The notes beneath the pieces are model-generated. The model saw only the letters and a program-made list of their open reading frames with translations, did no database searches and had not been told where the DNA came from. From contig NZ_JAILWM010000002.1 in NCBI RefSeq assembly GCF_025698945.1, positions 62,001 through 126,000 on the forward strand: 64,000 bases of DNA, in the 5' to 3' direction. Of this stretch, positions 657 to 62,046 are shown in pieces (within the stretch, counting starts at the first letter, position 1; every line of letters begins with the position of its first letter). Origin of the DNA: Nitrosopumilus sp. (GTDB lineage: Archaea; Thermoproteota; Nitrososphaeria; Nitrososphaerales; Nitrosopumilaceae). The translations under genes were made by a program, and so were the position numbers.

Positions 657-1040
657 TCATTCTTTAATTTCAAACCCTTTTTCTTTGAGATCATTTCGAA
701 TGTCTTGCTTGATTTGATCAAGTTCTGTTTTTGGAATATCAAAACTAATCATCTTTCGAATTTGGTTTAACATTACTCGACCATCCTGGTCATCAGTTAA
801 TTTTTGCCCTGACTCTTCAAATGTATAATATGCCTTCATGATTTCTAAGCGTTGATCTAGATCATTTCTATCCGAGTTATTCATCCAATCATCTATCATC
901 AATCTAAGATCTTGCTGAGTAACAGGAGGAATTGGCTTAGAATCATATGAATACAAACCCACCACTAAAATCAAAATACTGATTCCAACTACAGAAATGA
1001 TAGGAATGAATCTATTCAAGACATTCACCAGTATGATCAA
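657..1040 (-). CDS. Small membrane-anchored protein, unknown function
   Basis: This is a 127-residue protein that I do not recognise. One hydrophobic helix at about residues 12-30 (FIPIISVVGISILILVVGLY) would anchor it in the membrane with a charged, mostly helical domain outside. Its start overlaps the end of the Kazal-domain gene upstream on the same strand by 29 nt, so the two are probably co-transcribed and translationally coupled. A later start is possible, because the first ten residues are read inside the upstream gene. Confidence 0.7.
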   Translation of the reverse strand: MIILVNVLNRFIPIISVVGISILILVVGLYSYDSKPIPPVTQQDLRLMIDDWMNNSDRNDLDQRLEIMKAYYTFEESGQKLTDDQDGRVMLNQIRKMISFDIPKTELDQIKQDIRNDLKEKGFEIKE

Positions 1041-1755
1041 TTGTAATGTGTTGAGAATTAATCATGCATTTGTTGCCGTATGTTATTCCATCAATTCCAC
1101 AAACAGGTGCATATTCTAGGGTACATGCAAAAACTGGAAAACTCTTCTGCCAGCCTCTCTCAACCAGATTCTCCATTGCATGATTGCTAACACATGCAGG
1201 AGACCCATCATGAGATTTGAAGATAAGATTCAAGTTTTCTGCACATATAACATCAGATGCTGCAATTCCTGCATTTCCTTGAAGCGATGGTCTAAGGTAG
1301 GGTTGTTTCATTCCATCCATAATGCATACCTTACCAGGATATATTCCAGGTCCACATCGGTCATTTAGAACACAAATTTCACCTAGGGAAATAAACCCTG
1401 GAGCACACAAGTTATTGTATGGAATATGTTTAGAGTATGATTTTTGGTCAAGAATTTCTATCTGAGTGTATTTTTTACTTGAAGAGTCTGCAGGTGGATT
1501 ATTTACATCGGTGATTTTGACAGATATAGTGTAAGATTTTCCTTGGACATAATCAAATCCTTCAATTGAATTATAGAAATTCTGCCATCGAGAATCTTCA
1601 TCTTCTCTGACTTGCATGCACTTTTGGGGTGCAACACCAACACAATCAACCAGATTAGGACTTATGAATAATATTTTTGTCTCATCTGCAAAAGAATATT
1701 GTAACACTGTAAAACTCAAGAAAAACAATACAATGACTGTTAAGAAAACTTTCAT
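1012..1755 (-). CDS. Secreted protein with C-terminal Kazal-like domain
   Basis: This 247-residue protein has a clear signal peptide (MKVFLTVIVLFFLSFTVLQYSFA). Residues about 165-200 carry a C-x(n)-DGSPACV-x(n)-ERGW module that recurs in other exported proteins of this window. The last 40 residues match the Kazal/follistatin pattern C-x7-C-x10-C-x14-C with EYAPVCGIDGITYGNKC. Kazal domains usually inhibit extracellular serine proteases. Here only four of the six usual Kazal cysteines are seen in the domain, so inhibition is an inference. Other cysteines (CAPGF, CVLNDRCGPG) suggest a disulfide-rich extracellular protein. Confidence 0.8.
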   Translation of the reverse strand: MKVFLTVIVLFFLSFTVLQYSFADETKILFISPNLVDCVGVAPQKCMQVREDEDSRWQNFYNSIEGFDYVQGKSYTISVKITDVNNPPADSSSKKYTQIEILDQKSYSKHIPYNNLCAPGFISLGEICVLNDRCGPGIYPGKVCIMDGMKQPYLRPSLQGNAGIAASDVICAENLNLIFKSHDGSPACVSNHAMENLVERGWQKSFPVFACTLEYAPVCGIDGITYGNKCMINSQHITIDHTGECLE

Positions 1756-1823
1756 AACATTTCTACAAAATTATTCTTTAAAGCCTTTGATGAAAATGAA
1801 ATTTTACTGATAATGGAGTAATA

Positions 1824-1938
1824 GCGAGAACATTGTGAAAAAAGTTCACAAATTTGTTCTGGTCTAGGGAAACATTGTTCTCGCATGCATTTGATAGATA
1901 ATTAATTATCATATATGATAGTAAGCTAATAAGCTTAC
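1824..1938 (+). ncRNA. Candidate structured leader RNA, copy A
   Basis: The region folds into nested stems. GCGAGAACA (1824-1832) pairs with TGTTCTCGC (1876-1884) and encloses a perfect hairpin TGTGAA/TTCACA (1834-1839/1845-1850) and a conserved GGTCTAGGGAAA segment. A second hairpin, GTAAGCT/AGCTTAC, lies at 1921-1927/1932-1938. The same elements in the same order stand before the paralogous gene at 59560. It sits 55-169 nt before the 49-residue ORF at 1993, so a 5' leader, riboswitch-like element or independent small RNA are all possible. A DNA-level operator is the main alternative. Confidence 0.6.
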
Positions 1939-1992
1939 CAGTAATCTAAGAAAGATAGTACTTGCTATGTGTGACAAATCTTAATCACAATC

Positions 1993-2142
1993 ATGAAAAC
2001 ACAACAAATCTCAAACTGGGATAAAATGGTACATGCTCCATTCAAAAAAGTTGTCAAATTCGATCTAATCTGCATGGGAATTGGTGCAATAGTAGGAATG
2101 GGAGCAGGTGCTTATCTTGTTGCTAGCGGTTTATTAGGCTAG
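1993..2142 (+). CDS. 49-residue membrane microprotein, paralogue A
   Basis: The ORF encodes a 49-residue protein with a basic, amphipathic N-terminus (WDKMVHAPFKKVVKFD) and one glycine-rich membrane helix (LICMGIGAIVGMGAGAYLVA). A near-identical 49-residue protein is encoded at 59560-59709 behind the same leader element. Conservation at the protein level, with mostly synonymous or conservative changes, supports real coding. The function is unknown. GxxxG-like spacing in the helix suggests helix packing or oligomerisation, which is inference. Confidence 0.85.
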   Translation: MKTQQISNWDKMVHAPFKKVVKFDLICMGIGAIVGMGAGAYLVASGLLG

Positions 2143-6821: not shown

Positions 6822-6961
6822 TTTTGTCTATCCTAGTATAGAGTGTCAAAATTATAACCTTTGATGAAATTTGGTTTTTACCAAAAAAATACAACAGTAA
6901 AATGAGAATTTTTAATGGTTTATGATAAAAAGAGAAAAATGAGAATAACTAAAAATTATTT

Positions 6962-7234
6962 CTAACGTTTAGCTTTTCTAGCAGTTCGTTTTGCTTTGGT
7001 TGCAGTTTTTCTAACCTTTCTTTTGGTTGTACTAGCTGCTTTCTTTGCAGTACGTTTTGCTTTAGTTGCAGTTTTTCTAACCTTTCTTTTGGTTGTACTA
7101 GCTGCTTTTTTTGCAGTACGTTTTGCATTGGTTGCGGGTTTTCTAGCCTTTCTTTTGGTTGTACTAGCTGCTTTCTTTGCAGTACGTTTTGCTTTTCCAA
7201 CAACTTTTTTTACAGTTTTTTTGGCTTTTGCCAT
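6962..7234 (-). CDS. Lysine/alanine-rich histone H1-like protein with tandem repeats
   Basis: This 90-residue protein consists of three near-perfect 22-residue repeats of the form KRTAKKAASTTKRKVRKTAT, encoded by a 66-bp DNA tandem repeat. Composition is almost entirely Lys, Ala, Arg and Thr, like the C-terminal tail of histone H1 or bacterial Hc1/AlgP-type proteins. It probably binds nucleic acid without a fixed fold. Two overlapping alternative frames are also open because of the repeat; this frame is chosen for its start codon and composition. Confidence 0.75.
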   Translation of the reverse strand: MAKAKKTVKKVVGKAKRTAKKAASTTKRKARKPATNAKRTAKKAASTTKRKVRKTATKAKRTAKKAASTTKRKVRKTATKAKRTARKAKR

Positions 7235-17194: not shown

Positions 17195-17281
17195 TGGCGC
17201 GGGGAGGGGGATTTGAACCCCCGAGTCCTTGCGAACATGGGATTAGCAATCCCACGCCCTACCAGGCTAGGCGACCCCCGC
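17195..17281 (-). tRNA. tRNA-Ser (GCT anticodon)
   Basis: The minus strand folds as a class II tRNA. The acceptor GCGGGGG pairs with TCCCCGC, the anticodon stem TGGGA/TCCCA has loop TTGCTAA with anticodon GCT, a long variable arm contains TTCGCAAGGA, and the T-arm GGGGG-TTCAAAT-CCCCC is perfect. Discriminator G is followed by an encoded CCA (17195-17197). It reads serine AGC/AGU codons. No intron is visible. Confidence 0.95.
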
Positions 17282-23895: not shown

Positions 23896-25104
23896 TTACT
23901 CTTCTATTGGTTCAGAATCATCAGATTCTGCACTTGTAGATTCTACAGATTTTTCTTTAGCACTTTTTGCAGGAGCGTCTTCCGGTGTTTCTACTGTAGC
24001 CTCTACTTCTGGTGTTTCTACTGTAGCCTCTACTTCTGGTGTTTCTACTGTAGCCTCTACTTCTGGTGTTTCTACTGTAGCCTCTTCTTTGGTCTTTTTG
24101 GTAGTTGCCTTTTTAGTAGTCTTTTTGGTCTTTTTCTCTGCATCTTCAGGGTCTATGACTCCTGCTTCACCTAATGCAAAGATGACTTCTTCTTCTGGAT
24201 GATGAGGACTATCCACCATTCTGGCAATTCGTTTTTTACCTGATTTCTTAAAGTAGATTCTGTAGGTACTTGTATGTGCAACTACATTTCCACCAATTGG
24301 ACGTGTTGGATCTCCAAAGAAAACATCAGGGGAAGCCATTACTTGGTTGGTTGCAATTGCAGCACAATTGTATGTCTCTGCAATTCTAGACAGCAGATGA
24401 ACAAAGTGATTTAGTTTTTGTTGTCTTGTAGATAGTGTACCTCGTCCAAGATATTCAGAACGGAATAATCCAACTGCAGAATCTGCAACAATTAGTTTTA
24501 CATTATGCTCTTCAATTATTGGACCAGCTTCTTCTAGGATTAGTACTTGGTGCGCACTGTTGTATGCACGTGCTACTATGATGTTATCAAGTACTTTTTC
24601 TGGATCCATCTCATGAGCTTGTGCAATAGACACAATCCTTTCAGGTCGAAAAGTGTTTTCAGTATCAATATACAAAACGCTGCCTTCAAGACCACCTTCT
24701 TCTTTACTTTTTTGAACCATTACAGACATTGTATGAGCAAATTGTGTCTTACCACAACCAAATTCACCATACACTTCTGTTAATGCTTGAGTTTCAATTC
24801 CACCATCAAATAATGTATCAAGACAGTTTGTACCTGTTGTAATTTTACCTATACTTTGTCTGTGTTTGTAAATTTCACTTGCACTAACAAAATCTTTGGC
24901 AATTAACCCACCTTCAACTAAATGTTGACGGGCTTTATTGACAATTTTGTCAGCAGTATCCTTTTCCATTCCAGTGATTTCTGCAATTTCTACAGGACCT
25001 CTGACGATGAGATCCATGACGTTGTGGATACCTGCATCGGATAATTTTCTTGTAGTTACAGGACCTACGCCCTCTAAACTATCTAATCTTAAATCTTCTA
25101 CCAT
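23896..25104 (-). CDS. radA: RadA recombinase with repetitive C-terminal tail
   Basis: This 402-residue protein has an N-terminal helix-hairpin-helix domain (1-60), Walker A GEFGCGKTQ at 113-121, the Walker B strand VKLIVADSAVG and loop-2 residues NQVMASPDVFFGDPTRPIGG. RadA forms filaments on single-stranded DNA and drives strand exchange. Archaeal RadA normally ends near residue 320. Here about 80 extra residues follow: a lysine/threonine stretch, then four nine-residue repeats of the form EATVETPEV, then an acidic end. The tail's role is unknown. Confidence 0.95.
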   Translation of the reverse strand: MVEDLRLDSLEGVGPVTTRKLSDAGIHNVMDLIVRGPVEIAEITGMEKDTADKIVNKARQHLVEGGLIAKDFVSASEIYKHRQSIGKITTGTNCLDTLFDGGIETQALTEVYGEFGCGKTQFAHTMSVMVQKSKEEGGLEGSVLYIDTENTFRPERIVSIAQAHEMDPEKVLDNIIVARAYNSAHQVLILEEAGPIIEEHNVKLIVADSAVGLFRSEYLGRGTLSTRQQKLNHFVHLLSRIAETYNCAAIATNQVMASPDVFFGDPTRPIGGNVVAHTSTYRIYFKKSGKKRIARMVDSPHHPEEEVIFALGEAGVIDPEDAEKKTKKTTKKATTKKTKEEATVETPEVEATVETPEVEATVETPEVEATVETPEDAPAKSAKEKSVESTSAESDDSEPIEE

Positions 25105-33170: not shown

Positions 33171-34514
33171 ATGTATTCTGTAATTTTAACAGAATTGGGA
33201 ATTTCAGTTTTTAATGATGGAAAGCTGGACAAGGCATTCCCATTTTCTAATTCAGTTAAAGAGTATCTTGCAGTGAAAAATAAAGAGTCAAAACTAAATG
33301 AGCTTGTAAATTATCTTGCTTCGATTCAAAGAGGAGTTTCAGTCAGTGATGAATCATTATTGGCTATTTTGAAAAAATATTCGATTGACTCTCATCTAAT
33401 GGATTCAAGCGAACTTGAAACGGTTCAAGCAACAAAACCACAAATTATAGTTGATTCAGGTTTTGCATCAAATCTTCAAGACACATTAGGAAAATTAAGA
33501 GAGTTTGCATTAGGAATTTCATCTTCTAAAGTAACAGAGGTTTCAGAAAGTCCAGATCTTCATATCATTCAAGCAATAAATTCACTTGATGAGATTGACA
33601 AAATTGCAAATGGTCTAAGCTCAAGACTTAGAGAATGGTATGGATTACATTTTCCAGAATTAGATAATGTGATTGATAGTATCAATGGTTATGCTCAAAT
33701 CGTAATGGCTGGAAAAAGAGAATCATTAACAAAGCAAATTTTTGAGGATGCAGGTTTTCCTGAATCTAAAGTAGAAATGTTATCATTGATTTGTACTAAA
33801 AGTAGAGGAGGGGACATATCAGATGTCAATTTAGCAATTGTTCAATCTATTGCAAAACAAATTCTAGATTTTCATGATTTACGTAAAAAACTTGAAGAGC
33901 ATGTAGAATCTGAGATGAATACAATTGCTCCTAATCTTTCAGCAATACTTGGTTCTGCAGTTGGAGCAAGAATTTTAGGAAGAGCAGGTAGTCTCAAAAG
34001 ATTGGCATCTCTACCAGCAAGCACAATACAAGTTTTAGGAGCTGAAAAAGCATTGTTTAGATCATTGAAAACTGGTTCTCAACCACCAAAACACGGATTA
34101 CTATTCCAACATGCAATGGTTCATTCTGCACCAAGATGGCAAAGAGGAAAAATTGCACGTGCAGTTGCAGCAAAGGCGGTAATTGCTGCTAGAGTAGATG
34201 TTTACGGTGAAGGACTAAACCAAACATTACTTGAAAAACTCAATGTTAGAGTTGATGAAATAGGCAAGAAATATGAAAATCCTACTGAAAAAGATATGAG
34301 ACCACCTCAAACCTTTAGAAGAGAAGGTGGAAACTTTGGCGATAGAAGAAGAGAAGGTGGAGAAAGAAGAAGAGGTGGAAACTTTGGCGATAGAAGAAGA
34401 GAAGGTGGAGAAAGAAGAAGAGGTGGAAACTTTGGCGATAGAAGAAGAGAAGGTGGAGCAGACAAAGAAAGATCTGGTTCAAATAAAAAGAGAAAGAAGT
34501 TTGGAAGAAGATAA
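33171..34514 (+). CDS. nop5: Nop5/Nop56-58 box C/D RNP core protein
   Basis: This 447-residue protein has the Nop fold: an N-terminal domain, a coiled coil and the Nop domain with MNTIAPNLSAILGSAVGARI (about 249) and LLFQHAMVHSAPRWQRGK (about 310). It bridges L7Ae, guide RNA and fibrillarin in 2'-O-methylation RNPs. The last 60 residues are 16-residue repeats of the form GGNFGDRRREGGERRR (48-bp DNA repeat), an RGG-like RNA-binding tail. Fibrillarin follows, overlapping by 14 nt. Confidence 0.95.
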   Translation: MYSVILTELGISVFNDGKLDKAFPFSNSVKEYLAVKNKESKLNELVNYLASIQRGVSVSDESLLAILKKYSIDSHLMDSSELETVQATKPQIIVDSGFASNLQDTLGKLREFALGISSSKVTEVSESPDLHIIQAINSLDEIDKIANGLSSRLREWYGLHFPELDNVIDSINGYAQIVMAGKRESLTKQIFEDAGFPESKVEMLSLICTKSRGGDISDVNLAIVQSIAKQILDFHDLRKKLEEHVESEMNTIAPNLSAILGSAVGARILGRAGSLKRLASLPASTIQVLGAEKALFRSLKTGSQPPKHGLLFQHAMVHSAPRWQRGKIARAVAAKAVIAARVDVYGEGLNQTLLEKLNVRVDEIGKKYENPTEKDMRPPQTFRREGGNFGDRRREGGERRRGGNFGDRRREGGERRRGGNFGDRRREGGADKERSGSNKKRKKFGRR

Positions 34515-37584: not shown

Positions 37585-38345
37585 TTGGATTTCGCAGGTT
37601 TCTTCATTTCAGCAATTACCCAATCTTCAATGAATTGACAATTTCTTGGACTAATTTCACCTTCTAGAGAACATTTTTGTTCAACAGGACAAACCAAACA
37701 AGGAGCATTTTCAATTGATTGAGTACTAATGGGTGTTTTTTTAATTATTAGTTTGTAAGTCCAACGACCTTTCTCAAGAATTTTTTCTCTAGTGATCGTA
37801 CCCATTCTTTCAAGTTTTAATGCTAATCTAGAACCGTCACGACTTGTAAGTTTAAGTTTTTTCCACAATTCACTTTGGAACATTCCATCAGATTCACGTT
37901 CTGCAAGAATATCATAAACTCTGTTAGTAAGTCTCTCCATGTCAACTTTTTCGATTTGGAAATTTTCTATTTCCTCATCAGAGAGTTGTTCTTCTAATTC
38001 TTCTTCTAGTGTTTTTTCAGCTTCCTTTTTAGCTTCTTCTAATTCTTTTTTAGTTAATTTTTTTACTTTTGCTGGTTTTTCTTCTGTTTTCTTTGCTGCT
38101 TTTGCTGCAGGTTTCTTTGCTGTTTTTGCTGCAGGTTTCTTTGCTGTTTTTGCTGCAGGTTTCTTTGCTGCAGGTTTCTTTGCTGCTTTTGCTGCAGGTT
38201 TCTTTGCTGTTTTTGCTGCAGGTTTCTTTGCTGTTTTTGCTGCAGGTTTCTTAGATTTAGAAGGGGTTTTTTTCTTTTTTAGTTGATCAATTTCACTTTT
38301 TATTTTTTCAGCCTCTTCAATTAGAGAATTTTTTTTCTTTGCCAT
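37581..38345 (-). CDS. TFE-beta / Rpc34-like factor with lysine-alanine repeats
   Basis: This 254-residue protein has an N-terminal 110 residues built from eight-residue repeats of the form KKPAAKTA. The rest is a winged helix (LTNRVYDILAERESDGMFQS; GSRLALKLERMGTITREKI) followed by CLVCPVEQKCSLEGEISPRN and then C, a cluster like the 4Fe-4S site of RNA polymerase III subunit RPC34 and archaeal TFE-beta. TFE-beta helps open promoters. The repetitive basic tail is unusual for this family. Confidence 0.85.
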   Translation of the reverse strand: MAKKKNSLIEEAEKIKSEIDQLKKKKTPSKSKKPAAKTAKKPAAKTAKKPAAKAAKKPAAKKPAAKTAKKPAAKTAKKPAAKAAKKTEEKPAKVKKLTKKELEEAKKEAEKTLEEELEEQLSDEEIENFQIEKVDMERLTNRVYDILAERESDGMFQSELWKKLKLTSRDGSRLALKLERMGTITREKILEKGRWTYKLIIKKTPISTQSIENAPCLVCPVEQKCSLEGEISPRNCQFIEDWVIAEMKKPAKSK

Positions 38346-38967: not shown

Positions 38968-41061
38968 ATGCGACTTAGAAAATTCAGAGTTAGAGCATAT
39001 CGTTGCATTCATGATTCTGGAGAAATAACGGTAGGTGATTTAGCTGCTTTTGTAGGCAGAAATGAGAGTGGAAAAACAACCATTCTTCAAGCATTAACTC
39101 TTTTGAATAGAGATGAAACTGTTTCAGAATTAGATCTATGTGATGAAATGAGTGAAGAGCTCAAAGAAGAGATCAGGTTAGCAGAGGGAGAATTTGAATT
39201 AAATCAACATGAAATTGGACTGATTAAAGAAAAATTTCCCAATTTACCTGAAATTAAAAAAATCAAATTAATTAGAACAAATAGAAATTCAAAAGTTCAA
39301 TACGAATTTGAAGACATCAAACTCAGTGATAATTCAAATGAAGGAATTAATTCCTGGGAGAATTTTTCTAAAGAAATTTTAGAGTTTTTGAGTACAATTC
39401 CAAATCATCTAAGAATACAAATCGATACCAAATTTTTTGAAGGACCAGTGCCAAAAAATCAAGAAGCATTTGATAGCGGCATGGCTGAATTTAGTAATCA
39501 ATTCCATGTTATTGCAATTCAAGAGCCAAAAGTGATTGAGGAATGGGAAAAAATCTACGAAAAACCAGAAAACCAATATCCAAATCTTCTAAGCGGTGAG
39601 AGTGAAAAAACAGCACTGCAGAATTTTATTTGGTCAGATTTGCATCCAAGATTTGTGTATTTTTCTGATTACAAAAAAATCTATGGAAATATCAACCTCA
39701 ATGAATATCTCAGAGAAGAAAGAGGTGAAAGAGCAGACTCTATAGAGTATATTGAAGAATTTGACAAGGCTGAAACTGTAAGGAATCTATTTTATTTAGC
39801 AGAGTTAGATATGAAAGAATTAGATCAAGTAAAAGAAAGCCCATCAAAGTGTATTAAACTTCTAAATGCTGCAAGTAATAGATTAACAAGTAAATTAAAT
39901 CCCGCATGGAAAGGAGACCCAATACATGTAGACCTAAGATACAATCCTGGAAATATTATGAGTGTTGTAATTTCAGATGTTCACAAGGATGGAACCATAA
40001 CAAATACTGGATTGTTAAATAGAAGAGCTGAAGGTTTCAAGTGGACATTCTCTTTTATTGTAAACTTTGCAGCTGAAACTCAAAGAGCAGAACTAAAAGA
40101 AGCTATATTGCTACTTGATGAACCCGCAAGAAATCTTCATCCAACACAACAGATGGGAATTTCAGATTTGTTGAAAAATTTAGCAGGTTCAAACCAAGTA
40201 TTGTATGCAACTCACTCACCATTTATGATATTTGATTACACACCTGGAAATTTACTAGTTGTAGAATTAGATAAGAGAAAACATCTGAGTAGAATATTTT
40301 ATGATTATTGGAATGCAGATGATAAAACACTTACACCAATTTTGTATGGATTATCAAGAGGACAAGTTGAATCGATTGTAGACAGAGAGATTGGAACAAA
40401 TTCACGACCAGTAATAATAGTAGAGACAATGTCAGATGCAATGTATCTTAATGCTTTTGATAAATTCCTACAAGATCCCAATATTTCTATGAATCCGTTA
40501 AATGTTGTGGCAGCATATAACAAAAATTCTGTTCTACCATTGGCCATATTTTATAGAAACCATGGCTACAAGACATTCATCTTATTAGATAATTCTGATG
40601 AATCCAAGCAAATCTCAGCACAATTAGCATCAAATGAGTTTTCATCAATTCAAACTATTTTCTTTGAAAGAGAAGGAAAGAAATTAGAATCAATTGAGGA
40701 TTATATTGTTTTAGAAGATTATCTTTATCCTGTAAATCAAACATATGAAATCAAATTAAGACGTGAAGGATTTTCAAATTTGACTCCGTTAGAAGTTTCT
40801 TCAAAAGAAGGAAAAGGTATTTTGGAGAAATTAAAGAAGATATGGCAAGAACACCGAGATGATGATTGGGGACAATTTAACAATGAAGAGATCACTAGGT
40901 ATATTTGTGAAAAAATTGCATTAGAGGAAACAAATTTTCTATCAGATAAAACTAAAGACCAATTTAGATCATTGTATAGATTAATTGCTGAGAGAATTAG
41001 ACAGTATCAAAATGTGGTTACCAAACCTGATTTTGATAAATTTCAAAGGGCACGGGCTTAA
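38968..41061 (+). CDS. OLD-type ATPase with TOPRIM-like nuclease end
   Basis: This 697-residue protein has Walker A GRNESGKTT at 30-38, an ABC/SMC-like insertion, then Walker B in LLLDEPARNLHP (about 385) with an ATHSPFM switch. The C-terminal third has VIIVETMSDAMYL and FILLDNSDESKQI, a match to TOPRIM (Glu and an Asp-x-Asp-like pair). OLD-family proteins are nucleases used in phage exclusion and other defence systems, and GajA of Gabija is related. There is no helicase partner beside it, so any defence role would be stand-alone. Confidence 0.85.
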   Translation: MRLRKFRVRAYRCIHDSGEITVGDLAAFVGRNESGKTTILQALTLLNRDETVSELDLCDEMSEELKEEIRLAEGEFELNQHEIGLIKEKFPNLPEIKKIKLIRTNRNSKVQYEFEDIKLSDNSNEGINSWENFSKEILEFLSTIPNHLRIQIDTKFFEGPVPKNQEAFDSGMAEFSNQFHVIAIQEPKVIEEWEKIYEKPENQYPNLLSGESEKTALQNFIWSDLHPRFVYFSDYKKIYGNINLNEYLREERGERADSIEYIEEFDKAETVRNLFYLAELDMKELDQVKESPSKCIKLLNAASNRLTSKLNPAWKGDPIHVDLRYNPGNIMSVVISDVHKDGTITNTGLLNRRAEGFKWTFSFIVNFAAETQRAELKEAILLLDEPARNLHPTQQMGISDLLKNLAGSNQVLYATHSPFMIFDYTPGNLLVVELDKRKHLSRIFYDYWNADDKTLTPILYGLSRGQVESIVDREIGTNSRPVIIVETMSDAMYLNAFDKFLQDPNISMNPLNVVAAYNKNSVLPLAIFYRNHGYKTFILLDNSDESKQISAQLASNEFSSIQTIFFEREGKKLESIEDYIVLEDYLYPVNQTYEIKLRREGFSNLTPLEVSSKEGKGILEKLKKIWQEHRDDDWGQFNNEEITRYICEKIALEETNFLSDKTKDQFRSLYRLIAERIRQYQNVVTKPDFDKFQRARA

Positions 41062-59253: not shown

Positions 59254-59370
59254 CTATAATATCAACGATAACACCACTATAGAAACAGCTGCAATAACAT
59301 AGAATCCATAAAACGCCTTTTTGTGGCGAGGTATTGCAAGTTTTACTTTTTGTTTTAGTACTAAATTCAT
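59254..59370 (-). CDS. 38-residue membrane microprotein
   Basis: The ORF encodes a basic N-terminus (MNLVLKQKVKLAIPRHKK) and one membrane helix (AFYGFYVIAAVSIVVLSLIL). It is divergent from the second structured leader, with 23 nt between its start and the leader. A matching gene is not seen beside the first leader copy. Confidence 0.55.
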   Translation of the reverse strand: MNLVLKQKVKLAIPRHKKAFYGFYVIAAVSIVVLSLIL

Positions 59371-59393
59371 GATATTATCTCCATTAGTGTAAA

Positions 59394-59505
59394 GCGAGAA
59401 CATTGTGAAAAAAATTCACATAGTTCTGGTCTAGGGAAATGTTGTTCTCGCATGACATTATATTGTGATTTAACATGATATAGTATAGTAAGCTGTTAAG
59501 CTTAC
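59394..59505 (+). ncRNA. Candidate structured leader RNA, copy B
   Basis: GCGAGAACA (59394-59402) pairs with TGTTCTCGC (59443-59451), enclosing TGTGAA/TTCACA (59404-59409/59415-59420) and GGTCTAGGGAAA. GTAAGCT/AGCTTAC follows at 59488-59494/59499-59505. The paired arms are identical to copy A, whereas loop and linker bases differ, which is what a conserved RNA or protein-binding structure would show. It ends 54 nt before the 49-residue ORF at 59560. Confidence 0.6.
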
Positions 59506-59559: not shown

Positions 59560-59709
59560 ATGAAAACACAACAAACCCGAATTTGGGACAAAATGGTTCA
59601 TGCTCCATTCAAAAAGGTCGTAAAGTTTGATCTTATCTGTATGGGAATAGGGGTAGTGATAGGAATCGGAGCAGGTGCATATCTTGTTGCTAGCGGTTTA
59701 TTAGGCTAG
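59560..59709 (+). CDS. 49-residue membrane microprotein, paralogue B
   Basis: This protein is almost identical to the one at 1993: the basic N-terminus is WDKMVHAPFKKVVKFD, followed by the helix LICMGIGVVIGIGAGAYLVA and the same SGLLG end. Changes are QISN to QTRI and small hydrophobic swaps in the helix. The shared leader suggests the same regulation. Function unknown. Confidence 0.85.
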   Translation: MKTQQTRIWDKMVHAPFKKVVKFDLICMGIGVVIGIGAGAYLVASGLLG

Positions 59710-60337: not shown

Positions 60338-61687
60338 TCACACAGATTTTACAGTCCCAGTCATCCAAGGATGAAGCATGCAATAGTATTCATACAAACC
60401 TATTTCTTCAAATGTCTGCTCAAATGTATCTCCAGGCATCATCATTCCTGAATCAAATAAGTCATCATTACTGGTAACAGTATGAACTGAGATGTCTTTG
60501 TTAGTCCATGTAATACTATCACCAGCTTGAATCTGCGTAATCTTTGGATAGTATGACTTGTTTGAAGACTTTACTGCAGAGCCTTCTTCTACTTCACAAA
60601 TGGTGGTCTCAACTATATGTGACTCATCGGTATTTAGATTTGCAACTATAGTGTGTTCTTCATGACTGGATTTGCTTGCAATAGTTTTTGTTACTTTTGC
60701 AGTTTTGTCAGATAGTTGCAATTTTGTAAGGAGTTCTTTTTGCCAATTCCACATATCAACAGATTTAGTCTTTGCAATAGTTTCTCCATCTACTGCAGAA
60801 GCAGAAGCATCCCTAACGTCAAAGTATGCCATGGTTCCCTTTTCTTCAGGAACTCCATGTAGATGGAAGAGATATCTTCCTGGTTCTTTCCATTTTGCCT
60901 CAAATATTGCAGCATTACCAGGTCCAACTTCCCACGTCTGAGTTTTTATTGGTTCATTTTCCCATATTCCTGATACTATTGTATCAAAGATTGTTCCGTG
61001 AATATGAAACCCAAACGCAGGAATTGCACCCATGTCAACATAGTACAGTCTTACCAATTCGTTAGTATTGGCAGGTAAGGGATTCATCCAATATTGATCA
61101 GCGTAACCATTAAAGAAAACATAATCAGGAGTCCATGTCTCTTGATCTTCCAAATCATATTCTCCTTTGACTAGTACGTATTCTCGTGCAGGCTCCAATC
61201 CTTCCTTAGGATCTATAATGAATACACCATACAAGCCATTTCTAACATGTTCAGAGACTGGCATGACATGACAATGATACATGAAGACACCTGCTGGTTC
61301 TGCAATAAAGTCATAGGTATATGATTCTCCTGGAAGAACTTCTTGGAACACTCCATCATTTTTTTCATTATGATCACCATGAAAATGCATAGTATGAGGA
61401 AGTTTTCCATTGTTGATGAAATTGACAATAACTCTGTCACCTTCAGTTGCACGTAATGTAGGACCCGGAATTGTTCCGTTATATGTCCAAGCTTCAACTC
61501 GTATACCTGGAGAAATCTCCAATGTTGTATCCTCAGCAACTACAGTAAATGTACGTGTTATGGGGGAATGATGGACAGAAGTGTCTTGAGCAAATGATTG
61601 TAAAGGAAACTCAGCATTTAAGAAAAAAACCCCAAGTGTTATTCCAAGTGAGATAGCTCCTATAAACATAACAGTTGTTCTGTCCAC
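60338..61687 (-). CDS. Two-domain multicopper oxidase with plastocyanin-like end
   Basis: This 449-residue exported enzyme has a signal or anchor helix. Two cupredoxin domains carry HFHGDH (about 101), MYHCHVMPVSEH (about 134), FHIHG (about 222) and LFHLHGVPEEKG (about 268). A third cupredoxin of plastocyanin type follows (DSITWTNKDISVHTV and YYCMLHPWM). The layout resembles the NirK-like/multicopper oxidases of ammonia-oxidising archaea. At the type 1 site the axial Met of NGMYG is Leu (NGLYG). It may oxidise or reduce nitrogen oxides or other small donors outside the cell. Confidence 0.88.
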   Translation of the reverse strand: MDRTTVMFIGAISLGITLGVFFLNAEFPLQSFAQDTSVHHSPITRTFTVVAEDTTLEISPGIRVEAWTYNGTIPGPTLRATEGDRVIVNFINNGKLPHTMHFHGDHNEKNDGVFQEVLPGESYTYDFIAEPAGVFMYHCHVMPVSEHVRNGLYGVFIIDPKEGLEPAREYVLVKGEYDLEDQETWTPDYVFFNGYADQYWMNPLPANTNELVRLYYVDMGAIPAFGFHIHGTIFDTIVSGIWENEPIKTQTWEVGPGNAAIFEAKWKEPGRYLFHLHGVPEEKGTMAYFDVRDASASAVDGETIAKTKSVDMWNWQKELLTKLQLSDKTAKVTKTIASKSSHEEHTIVANLNTDESHIVETTICEVEEGSAVKSSNKSYYPKITQIQAGDSITWTNKDISVHTVTSNDDLFDSGMMMPGDTFEQTFEEIGLYEYYCMLHPWMTGTVKSV

Positions 61688-61997: not shown

Positions 61998-62046
61998 GAA
62001 TGTATTCTGCAAATACTTGAGAAGGTTTGTGTCATTTTTTTAATTT

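Follow-up and report, generated by a model that had tools for sequence, protein, structure and literature searches.

Proposed divergent promoters sharing a palindrome, and a conserved foldable probable leader element, at membrane microprotein genes of Nitrosopumilus

Two related loci in one genome

We have analyzed a 64,000-nucleotide stretch of the genome of a Nitrosopumilus sp. (positions 62,001 to 126,000 of contig NZ_JAILWM010000002.1; hereafter the window) in which two intergenic regions carry the same elements in the same order. An earlier reading of this DNA, made from the letters alone (the sequence-only reading), had named three inverted repeats before a 49-residue membrane protein, and all three are located as it described: GCGAGAACA (1824-1832) with TGTTCTCGC (1876-1884), TTGTGAA (1833-1839) with TTCACAA (1845-1851), and GTAAGCT (1921-1927) with AGCTTAC (1932-1938). 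The second set that it reported 57 kb away is also present, in the same order, at 59394-59451 and 59488-59505 with the ORF at 59560-59709. The two 49-aa proteins are near-identical (86% identity), and a stretch of 259 nt from the two copies aligns without gaps at 80% identity. In the present analysis the first two repeats belong to a foldable element read on the minus strand (E1, with stems P1 and P2), and the last is a separate palindrome (E2). The features of the two copies, A and B, are as follows.

1012-1755, minus strand: DUF4377 plus Kazal protein (Pfam); it shares an ATGA overlap with the leader ORF, to which it is predicted to be translationally coupled
1752-1886, minus strand: leader ORF of copy A, 44 codons, starting at the E1 AUG; its end, ATGTTATGA, overlaps the start of the next gene
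1824-1886, minus strand: E1 copy A, 5'-AUGCGAGAACA...UGUUCUCGC (covariance-model matches and aligned copies)
1886-1884, minus strand: AUG of E1 copy A
1876-1884 paired with 1824-1832, minus strand: P1 of E1 copy A
1845-1851 paired with 1833-1839, minus strand: P2 of E1 copy A; the conserved, single-stranded UUUCCCUAGACCAGAAC lies between P1 and P2
1911-1916, minus strand: predicted TATA box ATATAT of the minus-strand leaderless promoter (position-specific consensus of 29 E1 promoters)
1921-1938, no strand: E2 copy A, GTAAGCT-AATA-AGCTTAC, 34 bp from the minus-strand ATG and 54 bp from the plus-strand ATG
1963-1969, plus strand: predicted TATA-like box GCTATG of the plus-strand promoter (consensus CTAT in 32 homologous promoters)
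1993-2142, plus strand: 49-aa membrane microprotein copy A, WDKMVHAPFKK family (three copies in this genome)
59254-59370, minus strand: 38-aa membrane microprotein of the PRHKKAFYGFY family, behind E1 copy B; homologues likewise lie behind most E1 copies
59367-59453, minus strand: leader ORF of copy B, 28 codons, ending in TCATGA over the next start
59394-59453, minus strand: E1 copy B (covariance-model matches)
59488-59505, no strand: E2 copy B, GTAAGCT-GTTA-AGCTTAC, 34 bp from the minus-strand ATG and 54 bp from the plus-strand ATG
59560-59709, plus strand: 49-aa membrane microprotein copy B

Members of the 49-aa family occur in 99 of 250 Nitrosopumilaceae genomes. The third member in this genome (C3:39597-39743) has a variant palindrome, GTCAACAAATTAGCTTAC, with spacings, counted by hand, of again 34 and 54 bp, and lacks E1; its locus also holds a divergent zinc-ribbon gene and the gene of a candidate winged-helix regulator (40080-40874). 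The 49-aa, 38-aa and zinc-ribbon proteins gave no convincing match in Pfam, NCBIfam or PDB, the zinc-ribbon protein showing a weak similarity to Nop10 and Zn-ribbon RNA-binding proteins (E values 0.05-2.5). The DUF4377 and Kazal domains of the protein at 1012-1755 on the minus strand form an unusual pair.

The E2 palindrome and its candidate regulator

The 18-bp E2 palindrome, with the consensus GTMAGCT-N4-AGCTKAC, is found twice in the window, where 0.04 occurrences are expected. It lies 34 bp from the ATG of E1 leaders in 29 of 33 cases and 35 bp in three more, and 34 bp is also its distance to most zinc-ribbon genes. For the 49-aa genes the distance is either 34 or 54/55 bp, a difference of about two helical turns; the few other distances stem mostly from in-frame upstream ATGs chosen by the script. 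Promoters of the 54/55-bp form contain about 20 bp more than the 34-bp form, with a repeated TTACC. Thirty-five of the 36 exact E2 sites in the genus lie at a 49-aa gene or at E1, and the reversed control gave none; the remaining site is 34 bp from a CxxC microprotein. At two further loci (L009 and L116), ORFs of 71 and 70 aa (MKTSxKAMFVI...) start exactly 34 bp from E2, and these small proteins would widen the regulon.

Each side has TATA-like boxes approximately 24-30 bp ahead of its ATGs, and E2 lies upstream of both predicted boxes. From these positions transcription is expected to begin at the ATG or close to it, leaving E2 untranscribed, and the minus-strand message is accordingly predicted to be leaderless, with its 5' end at the E1 ATG. 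Marine dRNA-seq from the literature offered nothing usable on the starts at these loci. Base 3 of the half-sites is mixed in 32 of 55 sites, A/A in 16 and C/C in 7, showing no preference for pairing. From this lack of pairing preference, the fixed spacings on both sides and the position upstream of the TATA boxes we interpret E2 as an operator, and it has the attributes of one: a short palindrome, fixed in position at the promoter and confined to one regulon. The sequence-only reading had taken all of the stems for either a functional RNA or a DNA structure bound by a repressor. The second choice suits the last stem, with its operator-like spacings upstream of the TATA boxes, while the first two stems behave as RNA, as described below.

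Archaeal divergent promoters can share a winged-helix (ArsR/TrmB-like) operator. E2 resembles such promoters in being a palindrome between two TATA boxes with a linked winged-helix regulator, and differs from them in having two discrete operator-to-start spacings, 20-21 bp apart. The candidate regulator is a winged-helix protein (Pfam HVO_A0261_N, with a weak FilR1-like middle domain) whose gene is near many E2 sites and, in the genome of the window, adjoins the third 49-aa copy. The 17 genomes, out of 46, that have E2 are exactly those with an orthologue of at least 72% identity, and one more genome has a fragment; the P-value of about 1e-11 for this co-occurrence overstates its significance, since the genomes are related, and since many genomes carry the regulator gene and E2 in physical linkage, the co-occurrence is partly one event. 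Comparison among genomes makes this linked regulator the protein most likely to bind E2. To our knowledge, neither the palindrome nor its candidate regulator has been described.

The E1 element: fold, strand and reading frame

A covariance-model search, the check suggested in the sequence-only reading, found two copies of E1 in the genome of the window and about 36 in 25 Nitrosopumilaceae genomes, mostly of the same genus. A second model, run against 400 genomes of the order, gave no additional copies beyond three genera of the family. Ten pattern matches on viral contigs, at about 20-22 bits, were dismissed as chance (genuine copies score at least 54 bits, with one degenerate copy at 36), as were matches at L123 and G245. 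The credible copies all start with ATGCGAGAAC (or ATGCAAGA).

The E1 fold is more stable than dinucleotide shuffles on both strands, with z scores of -3.9 and -4.2 for copy A and -3.8 and -4.9 for copy B. On the minus strand, P1 (GCGAGAACA/UGUUCUCGC) extends from the G of the AUG to nucleotide 11 and surrounds a strand of about 23 nt containing UUUCCCUAGACCAGAA together with the hairpin P2, which in the aligned copies usually abuts the 3' arm of P1. Standard pairs occupy 89.5% of the P1/P2 cells, compared with 30-56% for slid versions, in an alignment that was not fitted to the structure. Both sides have changed in 15 of these cells, a number reached by none of 500 shuffles, and the covariation score is 0.119 versus 0.081. 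Most of this covariation rests on P2, as P1 is nearly constant: it shows a double change in two copies, at one pair close to the base of the stem, and changes of the innermost pair. RNAalifold by itself missed P2, because some rows of the alignment have it offset by a few bases; placing it against the 3' arm of P1 revealed it. E1 thus has a fold kept across species with compensatory changes, as is characteristic of cis-regulatory structured RNAs, and to this extent the proposal that the stems act as RNA holds for those of E1; it fails for the last stem, where the arms vary without regard to pairing. The search of the whole window with the Rfam 15 covariance models, at gathering score, gave only a tRNA and no riboswitch or leader family matching E1, in agreement with the sequence-only reading, which knew of no named class with this pattern.

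The loop-closing pair of P2, read on the minus strand in 32 copies, is A-U in 11, G-U in 10 and A-C in none, as would be expected of an RNA read from the minus strand. The ratio of G-U to A-C is 21:7 under a loose placement of P2 and 5:1 under a strict one, and we regard it as support for the minus strand, short of proof. Taken with its position and the TATA boxes, from which its presence in the transcript of the regulated gene is predicted, E1 appears to be a folded, conserved RNA that opens the minus-strand message and comprises approximately its first 60-62 nt. It could instead act as double-stranded DNA, that is, as a second inverted repeat bound by protein just downstream of the minus-strand start. 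The nearly invariant arms of P1 are what would be expected of a protein site, and the internal motif is strongly conserved. However, the arms of P2 change in a coordinated way, G-U occurs at the loop-closing pair on one strand only, the spacing of the P1 arms differs by single bases, and a reading frame with its stop overlap is maintained across the element; a DNA site is therefore an unlikely explanation of E1.

This frame, which begins at the E1 ATG, is open through E1 in 33 of 34 copies, as against 19 and 2 for the other two frames; the P-value of about 1e-11 for its openness is an overstatement, since both the E1 copies and the genomes are related. Among 30 copies in which the stop of the leader ORF was compared with the next start, 19 have ATGA, three a TAATG-type junction and seven an overlap of up to about 16 nt, so that 22 of 30 possess the ATGA or TAATG-type overlap of stop and start that marks translationally coupled pairs of ORFs. 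The length of E1 differs by 1-2 bases between copies, and the length of the linker compensates modulo 3: a single frame class, defined by the lengths of E1 and linker, accounts for 23 of the 30 copies where 10 are expected. In three copies the E1 ORF and the 38-aa microprotein form a single continuous frame, and no second start codon is present. For the UUUCCC strand of E1 as an anti-Shine-Dalgarno sequence, pairing with the start of the following gene was weak, at a mean z of -0.66 (12 of 26).

Is E1 kept simply as the coding sequence of a leader peptide, MREQxFPRPExxCEFFSQCSR? In favour of this, nearly all copies have the frame open, and the peptide can be recognised in many of them. Other copies, however, read the same nucleotides in other frames (SLDQ, where FPRPE is found elsewhere, and IVNFFHNVLA), and changes in the E1 peptide show no synonymous excess (93 synonymous versus 171 nonsynonymous, and 82 versus 218). 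With frames that vary and no such excess, the conserved regulatory codons or peptide of a leader-peptide attenuator were not found in E1, and we hold a purely coding origin of its conservation to be quite improbable. The open frame, the overlapping stops, the differences of frame and the nonsynonymous surplus together indicate that translation and RNA are kept, and not the peptide.

Genes behind E1 and a proposed mode of regulation

E1 precedes at least four unrelated genes. The commonest is the 38-aa PRHKK membrane microprotein; zinc-ribbon microproteins, a membrane protein of about 130 aa and, at copy A in the window, the DUF4377-Kazal protein are also found. A multicopper oxidase is present in 16 of the examined loci, and it follows E1 and the microprotein directly in six or more species of the genus. 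It matches the copper nitrite reductase NirK of ammonia-oxidising archaea (PDB 9cck) with an E value of 1.9e-250. Other species carry nirK with neither E1 nor the operator, and the E1 cassette is thus not obligatory for nirK. The window encodes another NirK-like multicopper oxidase (60338-61687, minus strand), which carries a cupredoxin domain and shares about 42% identity with the E1-linked NirK; its orthologues adjoin E1/nirK loci in several species.

The distribution of E1 also bears on its assignment to a gene. The sequence-only reading had joined all of the stems in a single structured leader before the 49-aa protein, proposed as a possible 5' leader RNA, and every element does lie upstream of that gene, in the right order, in both copies in the window. 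Nearly all E1 copies sit within loci having E2, yet many have no 49-aa gene nearby, and in the upstream regions of about 50 49-aa homologues E2 precedes most and E1 only some. Since, moreover, the reading frame and the pairing changes favour the minus strand, and the fixed spacings and TATA-like boxes place E2 outside both transcripts, a plus-strand leader is very improbable: what survives of the suggested new cis-regulatory RNA for the microprotein is the conserved structure, which would belong to the message of the opposite gene and stand at its head. Equally improbable is a small mobile or selfish repeat, made up of E1 and the 38-aa gene and inserted in promoters, for although each genome with E1 has one to three copies, variously placed and followed by unrelated genes, a single orientation at 34-35 bp from E2 is shared by 32 of the 33 copies counted, no more copies were found in the genome of the window at E values up to 1, no viral copy was convincing, and the dispersal in either orientation, unlinked to particular promoters, of REP and MITE elements was not observed. 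At one locus (L097, G136:C3:59202-64419), two E1 copies point apart across a single E2; one of them (L097_8) is degenerate: its leader ORF is truncated and no gene follows.

The reading that we prefer, with a probability of roughly 0.65, is that of divergent leaderless promoters sharing E2, one of whose transcripts would begin with E1 as a translated, foldable RNA leader. This reading is drawn from sequence comparison throughout. E2 and its regulator would set transcription on both sides, yielding the 49-aa membrane microprotein on one side and a message headed by E1 on the other, where E1 would act as a post-transcriptional gate. In the direction of switching that we infer, folded E1, perhaps stabilised by a small molecule or a protein on the conserved UUUCCCUAGACCAGAA strand, would hide the 5' AUG from ribosome loading. 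Open E1 would allow the short ORF to be translated through the element, and termination at the ATGA overlap, aided by a GGAG motif, would then lead to initiation of the next gene. A more specific proposal, that E1 represents a new class of ligand-sensing RNA on a 5' AUG, a 'leaderless riboswitch' responding to the state of copper, nitrite or nitric oxide and gating nirK and the membrane microproteins, is speculative, and we think it doubtful.

Parts of this scheme have precedents. Leaderless and Shine-Dalgarno-led mRNAs exist side by side in almost all archaea (PMC7531240), and reinitiation following termination at ATGA overlaps is an established archaeal mechanism (PMC6728339). As in the ATGA- or TGATG-coupled gene pairs of archaea and bacteria, the stop of the E1 ORF overlaps the next start, often with GGAG just upstream; unlike those pairs, the E1 ORF encodes no conserved peptide and its RNA fold is kept (PMC6728339). 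Combinations of uORF and riboswitch, for example the Mycobacterium tuberculosis B12 riboswitches (PMC11260477), also join a structured leader to a short translated ORF; compared with these, the E1 ORF differs in beginning at the predicted 5' end and spanning the structured element, and E1 has no Rfam match. Our literature search found no RNA leader or operator described for these genes, which is weak evidence given its incomplete coverage of journals. Little is known about regulation in ammonia-oxidising archaea, and the role of their NirK is debated. The present results put forward a specific operator with its candidate regulator, together with a conserved RNA, before nirK in several species, and raise the question of whether a leaderless mRNA can carry a regulatory RNA by folding its first codons while staying translatable in any frame.

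Two other kinds of feature were noted in the window. Tandem repeats with units of 66, 27, 48 and 24 bp are found at 6906-7224, 23952-24113, 34317-34460 and 38044-38276, respectively; all unit lengths are multiples of three, and the repeats are therefore probably intra-coding. The tRNA match, at 17198-17281 on the minus strand, is 84 nt long against a model of 71 positions, and this tRNA possibly carries an intron.
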